64,000 bases of DNA from Chloroflexota bacterium (GTDB taxonomy: Bacteria > Chloroflexota > Dormibacteria > Dormibacterales > Dormibacteraceae). Made by a program: the position numbers and the translations under genes. The stretch covers positions 248,001 to 312,000 of the forward strand of contig VBIW01000034.1 in NCBI GenBank assembly GCA_005880915.1, in the 5' to 3' direction. The notes below the pieces were generated by a model. It had not been told where the DNA came from. It searched no databases and was given only the letters and a program-made list of their open reading frames with translations. This document shows positions 1,903-54,671 of the stretch, piece by piece (within the stretch, counting starts at the first letter, position 1; the number at the start of each line of letters is the position of its first letter).

Positions 1903-3125
1903 CGGACACGATCGCTCAGGGCGTGACGGTCACCAAGACCGGCGATAGCGGCGCCTTCGGCGGCGAGCTGCTCACGGTCAACTTCGGCCCTCATCACCCG
2001 TCGACTCACGGCGTGCTCCGCCTCATCGTCGAGCTCGACGGCGAGCAGGTGCGCAGCCTGAAGCCCGTGATCGGCTACCTGCACACCGGAATCGAAAAGC
2101 AGATGGAGGCGCTGCGCTGGCAGCAGGGCGTAACGGTGACCGACCGCCACGACTACCTGTCGCCTCCCATCAACAACCTCGCCTATGCGCTCGCAGTTGA
2201 AAGGCTGATGGGCGTCGTGGTGCCGCCGCGCGCCGACGCCCTCCGCGTGATCATGTCCGAGCTCACGCGCCTGTCCTCGCACCTGGTCTGGATGGGGACG
2301 AGCGGGCTCGAGCTCGGCGCCATGAGCATGCTGATGTACTGCTTCCGGGAGCGGGACACGATCCTCGACATGAACGAGGAGATCTCGGGCTTCAGGATGC
2401 ACACGTCTTACATCCGCCCGGGCGGGGTGATGGCGGACGCGACGCCTCGCTTCCTCGAGATGCTCGACCAGTTCATTTGCGACATGCCGGGCCATGTGGA
2501 TGAGTACGAGAACCTGCTGACGAACAACCCGATCTGGCGGGCGCGGACGATCGGCATCGGCCGCCTGTCGGCGGAGGACGCGAAGGTGCTCGGCGCCACG
2601 GGTCCGATGCTTCGCGGCTCCGGTGTCGCCTGGGACCTGCGCAAGTCGATGCCGTACTCGGGCTACGAGAACTACGACTTCGAGATCGCGACCTCGGATA
2701 TGTGCGACTGCTACGGCCGCTACCTCGTGCGGATCAAGGAGATGCGCGAGGCGGTGAAGATCCTGCGTCAGGCGCTGGACCGATTGCCCGATGGGCCGGT
2801 CAACGTCGACGACCGGAAGATGCTGCCTCCGCCCCGCGAGGAGCTCGAGACGTCGATGGAGGCGGTAATCCACCACTTCAAGCTCTTCACGGAGGGATAT
2901 TCGGTGCCGCCCGGCGACGTGTACGTCGCAGTGGAGTCGGGCCGGGGCGAGAATGGGTGCTACGTCGTCAGCGATGGCACGCACAAGCCGCGGCGGGTGA
3001 AGTTTCGCTCCGCGTCCTTCGTCAACCTGCAGGCGCTGGAGCAGATGGCGCTCAACCACATGATCGCCGACATGGTCGCGATCATCGGCACCGCCGATAC
3101 CGTACTCGGTGACTGCGACCGGTGA
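1899..3125 (+). CDS. nuoD: NADH-quinone oxidoreductase subunit D
   Basis: The 49-kDa-type subunit that builds most of the quinone pocket facing cluster N2. It has 408 residues, the normal length. It shows the NFGPHHPSTHGVLR motif near residue 30 and IGYLHTGIEK, which bear the His and Tyr region contacting quinone. At the C-terminus FVNLQALEQM and GTADTVLGDCDR match the family. ATG 1899 overlaps the nuoC stop as ATGA. Confidence 0.97.
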   Translation: MTDTIAQGVTVTKTGDSGAFGGELLTVNFGPHHPSTHGVLRLIVELDGEQVRSLKPVIGYLHTGIEKQMEALRWQQGVTVTDRHDYLSPPINNLAYALAVERLMGVVVPPRADALRVIMSELTRLSSHLVWMGTSGLELGAMSMLMYCFRERDTILDMNEEISGFRMHTSYIRPGGVMADATPRFLEMLDQFICDMPGHVDEYENLLTNNPIWRARTIGIGRLSAEDAKVLGATGPMLRGSGVAWDLRKSMPYSGYENYDFEIATSDMCDCYGRYLVRIKEMREAVKILRQALDRLPDGPVNVDDRKMLPPPREELETSMEAVIHHFKLFTEGYSVPPGDVYVAVESGRGENGCYVVSDGTHKPRRVKFRSASFVNLQALEQMALNHMIADMVAIIGTADTVLGDCDR

Positions 3126-3778
3126 GCGCATTGTCCGCGCACGTGATCGAGGAGATCCGAGCCTTGCCGGCGAAATATCCGCAGTCCCGGTCGGCGGTGA
3201 TGCCGGCGCTGGATCTCGCCCAGGAGGAGATCGGGCACCTGACGCCGGAGGCGATGACCGAGGTCGCGCATGCATTGCAGCTCGACCCCGGCTACGTCGA
3301 GGGCGTCGCGACCTTCTATTCCTTGTTTCACCTCGAGCCCGTCGGCAAGCATCGGTTCTACGTGTGCACGAACCTCAGCTGCATGCTGCGCGGCGCGAAC
3401 GAGATCGTGGATCACGTCAGGCAAGGGATCGGGGTCGACGGGGCGGGGCAGGTTTCCTCGGACGGGCTGTTCAGCTACGAGGAGGTCGAGTGCCTCGGCG
3501 CTTGCGAGTACGCGCCGATGATGCGGCTCGACCACGAGTACCACTACGACCTAACTGCGGCGAAGATCGACTCACTGATTTCCGAACGACGATCTCCCGC
3601 GACTAAGCCAACTCCACGTCCCCACCCGCCGGCTGCGCCGGCGACCTCCCCGGCGAGCGGGGAGGTGAAGCCTCCAACTCCACGTCCCCACCCGCCGGCT
3701 GCGCCGGCGACCTCCCCGGCGAGCGGGGAGGTGAAGCTCAAGCGCGCTCCCGGGAAGAAGAGGAAGGTTGATGACTGA
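3122..3778 (+). CDS. nuoE: NADH-quinone oxidoreductase subunit E with repeat-derived C-terminal extension
   Basis: The 24-kDa-type subunit of the NADH-dehydrogenase module, carrying [2Fe-2S] cluster N1a. Ligands are seen as CTNLSC (Cys-x4-Cys) and CLGAC (Cys-x3-Cys). The usual domain ends near residue 158. The remaining ~60 residues are two copies of a 22-residue Pro/Ala-rich unit (HPPAAPATSPASGEVK core) and a basic tail (KRAPGKKRKVDD). The two units come from a perfect 63-bp DNA repeat, with period 66, that keeps the frame. The start is GTG 3122 (GTGA overlap with nuoD), and the end overlaps nuoF by 8 bp. The extension is predicted to be disordered, since Pro, Ala and Ser dominate it. Confidence 0.93.
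   Translation: MSALSAHVIEEIRALPAKYPQSRSAVMPALDLAQEEIGHLTPEAMTEVAHALQLDPGYVEGVATFYSLFHLEPVGKHRFYVCTNLSCMLRGANEIVDHVRQGIGVDGAGQVSSDGLFSYEEVECLGACEYAPMMRLDHEYHYDLTAAKIDSLISERRSPATKPTPRPHPPAAPATSPASGEVKPPTPRPHPPAAPATSPASGEVKLKRAPGKKRKVDD
3608..3736. repeat. two tandem copies of the palindromic repeat, in frame inside nuoE
   Basis: Copies at 3608-3670 and 3674-3736 are identical over 63 bp. Each contains two inverted repeats: one around GCCGGCTGCGCCGGC and one around CTCCCCGGCGAGCGGGGAG. The same second palindrome occurs in gaps between genes elsewhere in this window and in nuoI. The 66-bp period is a multiple of three and the repeat has no stop in this frame, so nuoE stays open. Confidence 0.95.
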
Positions 3779-7945: not shown

Positions 7946-8566
7946 ATGAGCGACGAAAAGCAAGATCGAACGTCCCCACCCGGCGGCCTTCAGCCGCCGA
8001 CCTCCCCGGCGAGCGGGGAGGTGAAAGATCGAACGTCCCCACCCGGCGGCCTTCGGCCGCCGACCTCCCCGGCGAGCGGGAAGGTGAAGCCGAATGTCGC
8101 CGGTGACGTCGGCGCGCTGCTGAAAGGGCTCAGGACCACGCTCGGTGAGGCGATGAAGCCTCCGGTCACGCTCATGTATCCGGAGGACAAGACCCCGCGG
8201 TCGGAGCGGTATCGCGGCCGCCACTACCTGCGCCGGTATGACAACGGGCTCGAGCGGTGCATCGGGTGTGAGCTGTGCGCGGCCGCCTGTCCGGTGGGCT
8301 GCATCCTCGTCATCGCGGCGGAGAACACCGAGGAGAAACGCGTCTCGCCGGGTGAGCGCTACGCGAAGACCTACGAGATCAACATGCTGCGCTGCATCTT
8401 TTGCGGCTATTGCGAGGATGCATGCCCGGTGCAGGCCATCGTGCTGGGTCCGGAGTACGAGCTGTCAGACACCAGCCGCGAGAAGTTCATTTACACCAAG
8501 GAGAAGCTGCTCGAGCCACTGCCGCCCGACGTCGAAGCGCGACTGAACTCGAAGGAAAAGAAGTAG
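7946..8566 (+). CDS. nuoI: NADH-quinone oxidoreductase subunit I with repeat-derived N-terminal extension
   Basis: The 23-kDa-type ferredoxin subunit with clusters N6a and N6b. Both eight-iron motifs are intact: CIGCELCAAACPVGC and CIFCGYCEDACPVQA. It is 206 residues against about 150-180 usually. The excess is at the N-terminus, where residues 6-47 are two 21-residue units (DRTSPPGGLxPPTSPASG core). These are encoded by two copies of the same palindromic repeat that enlarged nuoE, here with a different frame and left half. ATG 7946 lies two bases after the nuoH stop. No later start would keep the conserved region (around KPPVTLMYPED) at the usual distance. Confidence 0.93.
   Translation: MSDEKQDRTSPPGGLQPPTSPASGEVKDRTSPPGGLRPPTSPASGKVKPNVAGDVGALLKGLRTTLGEAMKPPVTLMYPEDKTPRSERYRGRHYLRRYDNGLERCIGCELCAAACPVGCILVIAAENTEEKRVSPGERYAKTYEINMLRCIFCGYCEDACPVQAIVLGPEYELSDTSREKFIYTKEKLLEPLPPDVEARLNSKEKK
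7963..8088. repeat. two tandem copies of the palindromic repeat, in frame inside nuoI
   Basis: Copies at 7963-8025 and 8026-8088 have a period of exactly 63 bp and differ at only a few positions (CTTCAGCC versus CTTCGGCC; GGGGAGGTG versus GGGAAGGTG). Each carries a GGCGGC...GCCGCC inverted repeat and the CTCCCCGGCGAGCGGGGAG palindrome. The unit is a multiple of three and free of stops in the nuoI frame. Confidence 0.95.
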
Positions 8567-14243: not shown

Positions 14244-14301
14244 AGCCCCTCCGGCGGCCTCTGGCCGCCACCTCCCCATAAATGGGGAGGAGCCACCTCC
14301 C
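14244..14301. repeat. palindromic repeat copy after nuoN
   Basis: Contains GGCGGCCTCTGGCCGCC (inverted repeat) followed by CCTCCCCATAAATGGGGAGG, a strong hairpin between convergent nuoN and the YdeI-like gene. It belongs to the same family as the copies in nuoE and nuoI, but in the CATAAATG loop version also seen at 40450-40468. The hairpin could help end transcription from either side, though no T-tract follows it. Confidence 0.75.
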
Positions 14302-22540: not shown

Positions 22541-22593
22541 GGCCCCACCCGGCGGCTTCGCCGCCGGCCTCCCCGGCGAGTGGGGAGGTGAAG
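22541..22593. repeat. palindromic repeat copy
   Basis: Full two-part copy: GGCGGCTTCGCCGCC inverted repeat, then CTCCCCGGCGAGTGGGGAG, ending GGTGAAG. It has the same layout as the units inside nuoI. It abuts the end of the DUF385 gene. Confidence 0.85.
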
Positions 22594-30782: not shown

Positions 30783-30872
30783 TCCCCATCCCCGCCGCAA
30801 GCGGTGGTACTTCCCCACTACGTGGGGAAGAGCCACCTCCCCATGAATGGGGAGGACCAGCTTTACGCGACA
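30783..30872. repeat. palindromic repeat cluster before the regulator gene
   Basis: Three hairpins in a row: CCGCCGCAAGCGG, CTTCCCCACTACGTGGGGAAG and CCTCCCCATGAATGGGGAGG. The last is nearly identical to the copies at 14270 and 40450. It fills the space between the candidate operator and the regulator start. Confidence 0.7.
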
Positions 30873-40382: not shown

Positions 40383-40519
40383 TACTCGCCTGCTGCCTTG
40401 CGCCGCCGCTCGGTTGGGCGCCGCCAGCCCCTCCGGCCCTTCGGGCCACCTCCCCATAAATGGGGAGGACAGACGTCTTACTCGCCTGCTGCCTTGCGCC
40501 GCCGCTCGGTTGGGCGCCG
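40383..40519. repeat. palindromic repeat flanked by a 41-bp direct duplication of a gene end
   Basis: 40383-40423 and 40479-40519 are identical (TACTCGCCTGCTGCC...GGGCGCCG, 41 bp). The second copy is the 3' end of the neighbouring small membrane protein gene, including its stop. Between them lie CCGGCCCTTCGGGCC and CCTCCCCATAAATGGGGAGG, a copy of the dispersed repeat. The arrangement looks like repeat insertion or expansion with duplication of flanking DNA. Confidence 0.85.
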
Positions 40520-54345: not shown

Positions 54346-54438
54346 GCGGCCCCACCCTGACCCTCCCCGGCAAGCGGGGAGGGGAATTCACTCAACTGCG
54401 GCCCCACCCTAACCCTCCCCGGCAAGCGGGGAGGGGAA
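54346..54438. repeat. two tandem copies of a palindromic repeat variant
   Basis: GCGGCCCCACCCT(G/A)ACCCTCC... copies start at 54346 and 54398 (period 52). Each ends in CTCCCCGGCAAGCGGGGAG and GGGAA. They lack the left inverted repeat of the nuoI type. They lie between the convergent GNAT gene and the serine-triplet protein gene. Confidence 0.85.
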
Positions 54439-54443
54439 ACTCG

Positions 54444-54671
54444 CTACTTGCGACGGCGGCCGATCGAGAGGATTGAGCCGGCGCTGCCGATGCTGAGAAT
54501 CGATCCCGCGCTGCCAATGCTCAGGATCGAGCCGGCGCTCCCGATGCTCAAGATCGAGCCCACGCTGCCGATGCTGAACACCGAGAAAGCGCTGAAAAGG
54601 CTGGCGACACTGAGCAGGCTGAATACGCTGTAGCGGCTACCGACGCTCGGCTGACTCTTAAATATAGTCAC
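54444..54671 (-). CDS. small serine-every-third-residue repeat protein
   Basis: Seventy-five residues: an eight-residue start, then 21 consecutive triplets that each begin with Ser (SVG SRY SVF SLL ... SIG SAG SIL), then RRRK. The last part is a nine-residue unit (SIGSAGSIL) repeated about four times, from 27-bp DNA repeats. The Ser periodicity extends into the non-repetitive first 24 residues, so this frame, not the open + frame, is under selection. GTG 54671 overlaps the rdgB stop as GTGA, so it is translationally coupled to rdgB. The fold is unknown; a regular threefold solenoid or polyproline-type helix is conceivable. Confidence 0.7.
   Translation of the reverse strand: MTIFKSQPSVGSRYSVFSLLSVASLFSAFSVFSIGSVGSILSIGSAGSILSIGSAGSILSIGSAGSILSIGRRRK

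Follow-up and report, generated by a model that had tools for sequence, protein, structure and literature searches.

The 66-bp tandem repeat at the end of nuoE is very probably a non-autonomous mobile palindromic element, belonging to families that lie mostly between genes and that are tolerated, and translated, in flexible loops and tails of proteins. The sequences show dispersion, a hairpin structure, empty as well as filled sites, a preserved frame and different families at one site; mobility by transposition-like copying, translation and a near-neutral effect on the proteins are inferred. A mobile palindromic repeat had been proposed in the preliminary description of this DNA, and the proposal is supported by the copy number, by empty sites, by paired changes in the hairpins and by different families in the same loop of sister genomes. 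The stretch of DNA analysed (64,000 nucleotides, called the window below) comes from a 4.13-Mb bin of 228 contigs, which is 96.03% complete with an estimated contamination of 8.59%. The NuoE proteins of the named Dormibacterota/Chloroflexi relatives are 68–88% identical to that of this uncultured bacterium, which probably dwells in soil, judging from the habitat words in the names of its relatives.

In the window, Tandem Repeats Finder detects in nuoE a repeat of period 66 with 2.0 copies and 100% matches, and the reading frame (218 aa) remains open across both units, as had been claimed. The Pfam domain PF01257 covers residues 15–155 of the protein (E=3.2e-47, 160.5 bits for a cut-off of 24.8), and since it stops at residue 155 the two units form a C-terminal extension, which ends in a short basic tail. 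The preliminary description had the repeat inserted twice. The two units are there, but two insertions fit less well than one: as an identical short 5′ flank is part of the 66-bp unit, the locus is better read, from its sequence, as a single insertion followed by a tandem duplication. The features of the window are collected in the table.

Features of the nuoE and nuoI genes and of the palindromic elements in the window
Feature	Position	Strand	Basis
nuoE with repeat-derived C-terminal extension	3122..3778	+	ORF, Pfam PF01257, AlphaFold2
66-bp tandem unit, 2 copies, 100% identical	3608..3737	+	Tandem Repeats Finder
First 51-nt copy of the two-hairpin palindromic element F1 in nuoE	3620..3670	+	sequence, folding, covariation
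Second 51-nt copy of the two-hairpin palindromic element F1 in nuoE	3686..3736	+	sequence, folding, covariation
nuoI, 206 aa, repeat-derived N-terminal insertion	7946..8566	+	homology, Pfam, element score
F1 element in nuoI, copy 1, 53 nt	7974..8026	+	
F1 element in nuoI, copy 2, 53 nt	8037..8089	+	
F2 element core, intergenic	14269..14291	+	
F1 element, intergenic between convergent genes	22543..22593	+	
F2 element core, intergenic	30834..30856	+	
F2 element core, intergenic	40447..40469	+	
Short F1-type element, 38 nt, intergenic	54350..54387	+	
Short F1-type element, 38 nt, intergenic	54402..54439	+	

The palindrome core has seven matches in the window with at most three mismatches, compared to 0.17 expected, and none of 100 shuffles reaches seven. 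The copies outside nuoE had been placed in intergenic gaps; this holds for the matches at 22569, 54363 and 54415, but those at 8002 and 8065 lie in frame within nuoI, in the part that encodes the N-terminus, where Tandem Repeats Finder detects a second tandem (7962–8088, 63-bp period). NuoI starts at the ATG at 7946 with MSDEK, which resembles the starts of its relatives (MADEK and similar), and the tandem sits between this start and the conserved body of the protein. None of the 13 relatives where NuoI was found has an element at this place: the 120 nt upstream of the conserved body score 14–23 against the repeat families in these relatives, compared to 88 here. In L021 the score is 23, with 5 of 100 shuffles as high, and the NuoI of three of the 13 (L012, L016 and L017) has a longer, different N-terminus. 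The two short 38-nt elements of the window adjoin a 27-bp tandem repeat of about four copies (54468–54577). A known RNA family was rejected as an identification, Rfam giving just three tRNAs in the window at the gathering threshold.

The nuoE copies belong to the family F1, whose 21-base core pattern has 74 matches in the 4.13-Mb genome with at most three mismatches, compared to 5 for a reversed control. Around the 61 copies with at most two mismatches, the consensus reads CCCCACCCGGCGGC..cGCCGCCGACCTCCCCGGCgAGCGGGGAGGTGAAG. The unit length, measurable in 51 of these 61 copies, ranges from 38 to 63 nt with a mode of 51 nt, which is the exact length of 22 copies. Folding of the nuoE unit gives two hairpins side by side. 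In F1, the stem of hairpin 2 is 9 bp long and its loop 5 nt, and the hairpins are strong and GC-rich (mean RNA MFE −32.0). Pairing was assessed on 13 of the 15 distinct copies of 51 nt, leaving out two that differ solely in the last base: 98.1% of the cells pair, 5 of the 16 pairs are changed on both sides, and none of 500 shuffles is as high. The nuoE copy carries one such compensatory change relative to the consensus. Paired changes in hairpins are what marks an element of DNA or RNA, and not a peptide.

The two ends of F1 read CCCCACCC and GGTGAAG and do not form a terminal inverted repeat. The core of the F2 family, CACCTCCCCATGAATGGGGAGGA, has 76 forward and 96 reverse matches in the genome versus 0 for the controls, these being largely the same copies counted twice because the core is near-palindromic. 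The C family is recognised by its arms CTTCCCC..GGGGAAG and the T family reads CCCTCTCCCC..GGGGAGAGGG. The families share CTCCCC/GGGGAG arms, and their copy numbers differ strongly between congeners; G014, for instance, has no match to F1 and one to F2, but many to T. A further pattern, whose spacing was off, has matches in 2 of 151 genomes, which says little, as it recovers only 4 of the copies of the present genome. Some copies are found in arrays: four F1 copies form a 78–79-bp tandem that includes the flank tagcaaatctgaac (L145:2954-3240), and eight F2 copies are arrayed at L291:2512-3133 (G000:C106:120011-120632), the first five at a spacing of 116 bp. Flanks resembling agcaaat also precede several other F1 and C copies, which suggests that some subfamilies may have a longer mobile unit.

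The distribution of the copies was established in the stretches around the listed matches, 538 kb including the window, where genes were called by codon usage trained on long ORFs; for F2 copies with mismatches coverage is incomplete and extends just to those among the matches listed. The repeat is dispersed: the 149 F1 and F2 copies in these stretches form 99 clusters, 68 of which are intergenic, while 12 lie at the edge of a gene and the other 19 fall within called genes (towards the C-terminus in 8 cases, internally in 7 and towards the N-terminus in 4). Called genes cover 0.904 of the sequence examined and yet 68 of the 99 clusters are intergenic, so copies inside genes are strongly depleted. 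The intergenic clusters lie between unidirectional (42), convergent (18) or divergent genes (8). One or two of the 19 in-gene clusters are doubtful: L141, which is probably a chance match, and L128, which has no Pfam match. The gene caller counted NuoI as an edge case, but homology shows that the element there is coding. The spacing of the in-gene F1 tandems is a multiple of three in 3 of 3 cases (66, 63 and 51), but the same applies to 9 of the 19 spacings outside genes or in other places, and tandem spacing was therefore rejected as evidence on the frame.

The carriers confirmed by Pfam are NuoE, NuoI, a TrpG-type GATase, prephenate dehydrogenase, pyruvate kinase (PK), a DUF2520 protein, an E2 acyltransferase, DUF222, DUF1638 and DUF1385 proteins, MoeA, glutamate synthase (GltB), an M20 peptidase, UppS and a GH1 enzyme. 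The copies of the E2 acyltransferase lie between the lipoyl and E3-binding domains; those of GltB, UppS and GH1 are weaker (3 mismatches) and stand outside the 149-copy count. Within these genes the repeat occurs in two forward frames and also in the reverse direction, and the predicted peptides include PATSPASGEVK, AADVPGERGGEA and LPSPLAGEGG. A 561-residue ORF over the L150 array and ORFs at L147 (+), L131, L138, L148, L140 and L153 have no Pfam match and are not named here as insertions in verified genes.

Some copies are found at the starts of genes. The called starts of a thiolase (L121:13720), a glyoxalase-fold protein (L129:3027), a Cys/Met PLP enzyme (L119:9911) and an aminotransferase (L124:2999) coincide with, or are adjacent to, the GTG in the repeat end GGGGAGGTGAAG; the element may therefore supply their start codon. 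The called starts of a DNA-glycosylase-like gene (L277:2467, −, MNGEE...) and of a FabD-like gene (L304:2586, +, MGRWREAPEG...), both named by reading the sequence, lie inside F2 copies. An ABC-transporter-like ORF (L123:428-2884), named in the same way, contains three copies of F2 within the low-complexity region at its N-terminus.

Comparison with the relatives shows the same loops empty, filled or differently filled. In PK, GltB and MoeA the two flanks of the loop were located separately and the gap was measured without assuming a frame; a loop is called filled at a local score of at least 34, the highest unfilled score being 27. The PK loop is filled in 8 of 16 genomes, by C in G000, by F1 in G002, G004, G011 and G013, and by F2 in G003, G007 and G012, and it is short in the remaining 8. 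The GltB loop is filled in 3 of 14 genomes, G000 and G012 sharing one insert and G007 having F2; the insert of G015 matches no family (178 of 200 shuffles as high). The MoeA loop is filled in 6 of 13 genomes, by reversed C in G000 and G012, by C plus F2 in G011, and by T in G004, G007 and G008; the insert of G006 is doubtful (13 of 200 shuffles as high), and the MoeA of G009 (L250), whose flank gap is −2, does not enter the subsequent counts. Shuffles alone do not separate filled from empty loops, because the native 30-nt GltB loop of G008, which is unfilled with a score of 27, also beats all 200 of its shuffles (0/200 as high), and several other short GltB loops beat most of theirs; the score together with the length gap does separate them.

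The NuoE tail is filled in 14 of the 15 genus members, this bacterium included, and in none of the 7 family members of other genera (the truncated L177 and the distant L178–L184 were left out of the scoring). It contains F1 forward, F1 reversed, F2 reversed or T, and both T and F1 in G002; the orientation of F1 in G000 and G002 is opposite to that in G003 and G004. The preliminary description had considered that relatives might all share one old extension conserved as protein. No extension common to all was found: the tails hold differing DNA repeats, of four family and orientation types among these 14 genus members.

All 43 scored loops have a length divisible by three, a count whose effective size is smaller since the genomes are related, and the translated loops of PK, GltB and MoeA contain no stop codon. 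The alignments of full-length PK (16 rows, L193 and L194 left out) and MoeA (13 rows, L242 and L249 left out) open mainly at the loop; the remaining gaps are either short or due to N-terminal extensions, contig ends or masked sequence.

Closely related genomes differ in their inserts. The sisters G000 and G012 (100% support) have GltB and MoeA inserts in common, with small differences, but they differ in PK (C versus F2) and in NuoE (F1 versus T). In the pair G007/G008 (100%), the PK and GltB loops are filled in G007 and empty in G008; similarly, in the pair G002/G010 (99%), PK is filled in G002 and empty in G010. In the single MoeA insert of G011, F2- and C- both match, with scores of 56 and 49, which is consistent with nesting of C and F2. 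From these sequence comparisons, the turnover of the elements in the loops looks fast. On the genome tree, whose backbone is weak, the minimum numbers of label changes are 8 for PK, 5 for MoeA, 3 for GltB and 8 for NuoE, close to the means of shuffled labels (7.3, 6.6, 3.9 and 7.6), so the family labels hardly follow the tree; these labels were given by hand, those of G006 in MoeA and of G015 in GltB being unsupported by the loop scoring, and GltB of G000 and G012 was labelled C with loop scores of 43 for F1 versus 36 for C.

The structural models indicate where the inserts are accommodated. In the AlphaFold2 model of NuoE (shallow alignment, mean pLDDT 78.4), the mean pLDDT is above 85 in 12 of the first 16 ten-residue blocks, below 50 for residues 165–182 and below 60 on average for the other residues of the units, and secondary structure is absent after residue 161. 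In that of PK (shallow alignment, mean pLDDT 70.2), the insert has the lowest block means (27–32), and residues 100–131 are below 50 and have no secondary structure; five other internal segments are also below 50. The alignment of the query to solved PK covers both flanks of the insert and is interrupted at the insert itself, and the MoeA site aligns with Cnx1 with gaps. Based on the low pLDDT, the break in PK and the gaps with Cnx1, the insert sites in PK, MoeA and NuoE look like length-variable loops and tails. The suggestion that the length and base order of the repeat suit it to genes was not borne out: unit lengths vary and, inside genes, are often not multiples of three, and there are 4.88 open frames per copy compared to 5.08 in shuffled copies. 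An element that has evolved to be coding-friendly was rejected on the same grounds.

The following sequence of events would account for these data. F1 (about 51 nt, two hairpins) and the related families C, F2 and T would spread via transposition-like insertion, and purifying selection would remove most of the insertions inside genes. The in-gene copies would survive solely where the frame stays open and where they enter a flexible tail, a linker or a surface turn, and they would then be simply translated. Local tandem duplication would afterwards produce multi-unit extensions, such as the two units of NuoE. The Y1 transposase domain PF01797 is over the cut-off in none of 25 genomes (this one, 15 congeners and 9 from other families), G025 having one sub-threshold match, compared to 5 of 14 control genomes, and no target-site duplication was resolved at the empty sites, which are diverged. 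Spread on plasmids, phages or viruses was rejected: plasmids and phages gave no match, and viral contigs gave none to an exact 28-letter F1 pattern. A more ambitious proposal, which we put forward tentatively as possible rather than probable, is that a few loops and tails of housekeeping enzymes in this genus are reusable landing sites that palindromic families keep entering, replacing and nesting in, moved by an undescribed Y1-free route, and that the length variation of essential enzymes would be written mainly by this turnover of selfish DNA.

The most serious alternative to repeated insertion is that each loop received one ancestral insertion, which was then overwritten by gene conversion or recombination between families that share their arms. 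The common CTCCCC/GGGGAG arms would allow such an exchange of cassettes, the presence of an insert in 14 of 15 NuoE tails needs a minimum of one presence/absence change on the tree (14 genomes), and C is found in the MoeA of G011 as well as in that of G000 and G012. We consider this rather unlikely as a general explanation, in view of the close sisters that are empty and filled at the same site (PK and GltB in G007/G008, PK in G002/G010), of the F2 match beside the C match within one MoeA insert of G011 and of the opposite orientations of F1 in NuoE. Some of the same-site differences could nevertheless be due to recombination between copies rather than to new insertion. As for a benefit of the extension to NuoE or NuoI, for example as additional linkers in complex I kept by selection, the fact that both genes are extended in this genome, each by a tandem pair, speaks for it, but the tail of NuoE is predicted to have no structure, and the congeners have unrelated NuoE tail peptides and no element before NuoI, which makes it very unlikely.

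Inserts in coding sequence are not necessarily translated: the byp elements of yeast mitochondria are left out of translation. Strong, GC-rich hairpins in conserved enzymes might suggest that the inserts are likewise spliced from the mRNA or skipped by the ribosomes. This is highly improbable here, since inserts that are skipped would need neither a frame nor a stop-free sequence, and the loops have both, even if the kinship of the genomes lowers the effective number of the 43 lengths divisible by three; the ribosomes therefore most likely translate the inserts. It is even harder to sustain that the repeat is an old protein feature, a Pro/Ala-rich tail conserved by selection on the protein. 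Most of the Dormibacterota NuoE examined do have some low-complexity, basic tail, but these tails match different DNA repeats on both strands, the nuoE element departs from the consensus by a paired hairpin change, and the NuoI element is absent in the 13 relatives. Finally, short-read bins can collapse or falsely join repeats, and the contamination of this one was noted above, but an artefact of assembly or binning is scarcely credible: one copy, at about 50 nt, is shorter than sequencing reads usually are, the window lies within a 393-kb contig, and inserts are also found in other genomes, those of GltB and MoeA being common to G000 and G012 with small differences.

The elements described here can be compared to several known repeats. 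By description they are like RIME and BIME, the palindromic mosaic repeats of rhizobia and enterobacteria, which are likewise palindromic but belong to other host groups. The parallel with the Rickettsia palindromic elements (RPE), drawn in the preliminary description, is valid for the occurrence of palindromic repeats in frame inside genes and fails for size and shape. Like RPE and their Wolbachia counterparts (WPE), the present elements are short palindromic repeats that occur in intergenic DNA as well as in frame within genes for conserved proteins; a guanylate kinase that contains an RPE is reported to be translated and active (PMC2229807), and WPE-like inserts are described as being in frame and without stops (PMC4224334). 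According to the description in PMC2229807, RPE are 105–146 bp long with terminal inverted repeats, whereas the units described here have 38–63 nt and two adjacent hairpins; in addition, they are found in another phylum, with several families in the same loops. Some RPE of R. conorii are said to end in CGTC (PMC3733652), the motif that opens 18 of the 51 F1 units.

REPs are presented in PMC3733652 as small hairpins that are mostly intergenic, some of them lying inside many proteins, and the CGTC type as having stems of 8–9 bp, loops of 4–5 nt and no associated transposase. F1 resembles the latter by the stem and loop of its hairpin 2 and by the lack of a Y1 transposase over the cut-off. A kinship is possible, but CGTC, although F1 units begin with it more often than with any other tetranucleotide, is lacking in 33 of the 51 units and is separated from the foot of hairpin 1 by 7 unpaired bases; next to hairpin 2, F1 lacks it on the upstream side, and elsewhere it is rare. 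GTAG REPs mobilised with a RAYT were rejected, given that none of the 25 genomes has a Y1 transposase over the cut-off and that the tag is nearly absent beside the main hairpins: within 12 bp, GTAG is found in 0 of 61 F1 copies upstream and 0 downstream, and in 0 of 88 F2 copies upstream and 1 downstream (its complement CTAC occurs downstream in 4 of 61 F1 copies). ERIC, YPAL and Correia MITEs are described as non-autonomous repeats that can be fused in frame to genes (PMC2229807). Such MITEs have about 100–200 bp, and many have terminal inverted repeats and target duplications; the ends of F1 are not inverted repeats, and no target duplication could be read at the diverged empty sites.

The kind of element is therefore not new, because palindromic repeats lying in frame within genes have already been described in Rickettsia, in Wolbachia and in several bacteria that carry REPs (PMC2229807, PMC4224334 and PMC3733652). 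Among the papers listed by a literature search, none concerned such repeats in Dormibacterota or the occupation of one loop by several families in turn; these families, their presence in this lineage and the reuse of the same loops appear to be new. Coding palindromes are best known from the obligately intracellular Rickettsia and Wolbachia, whereas here they are found in a 4-Mb genome of another phylum, in enzymes of core metabolism. Since its loops are empty, filled, differently filled and apparently nested, the genus offers a natural series for the conversion of selfish DNA into protein, which could show which loops tolerate such DNA and what moves elements that have no recognised transposase. 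A warning also follows: in these proteomes, SPASGEVK, PGERGGE, LSPGGER and similar peptides come from the repeats and do not represent conserved motifs.
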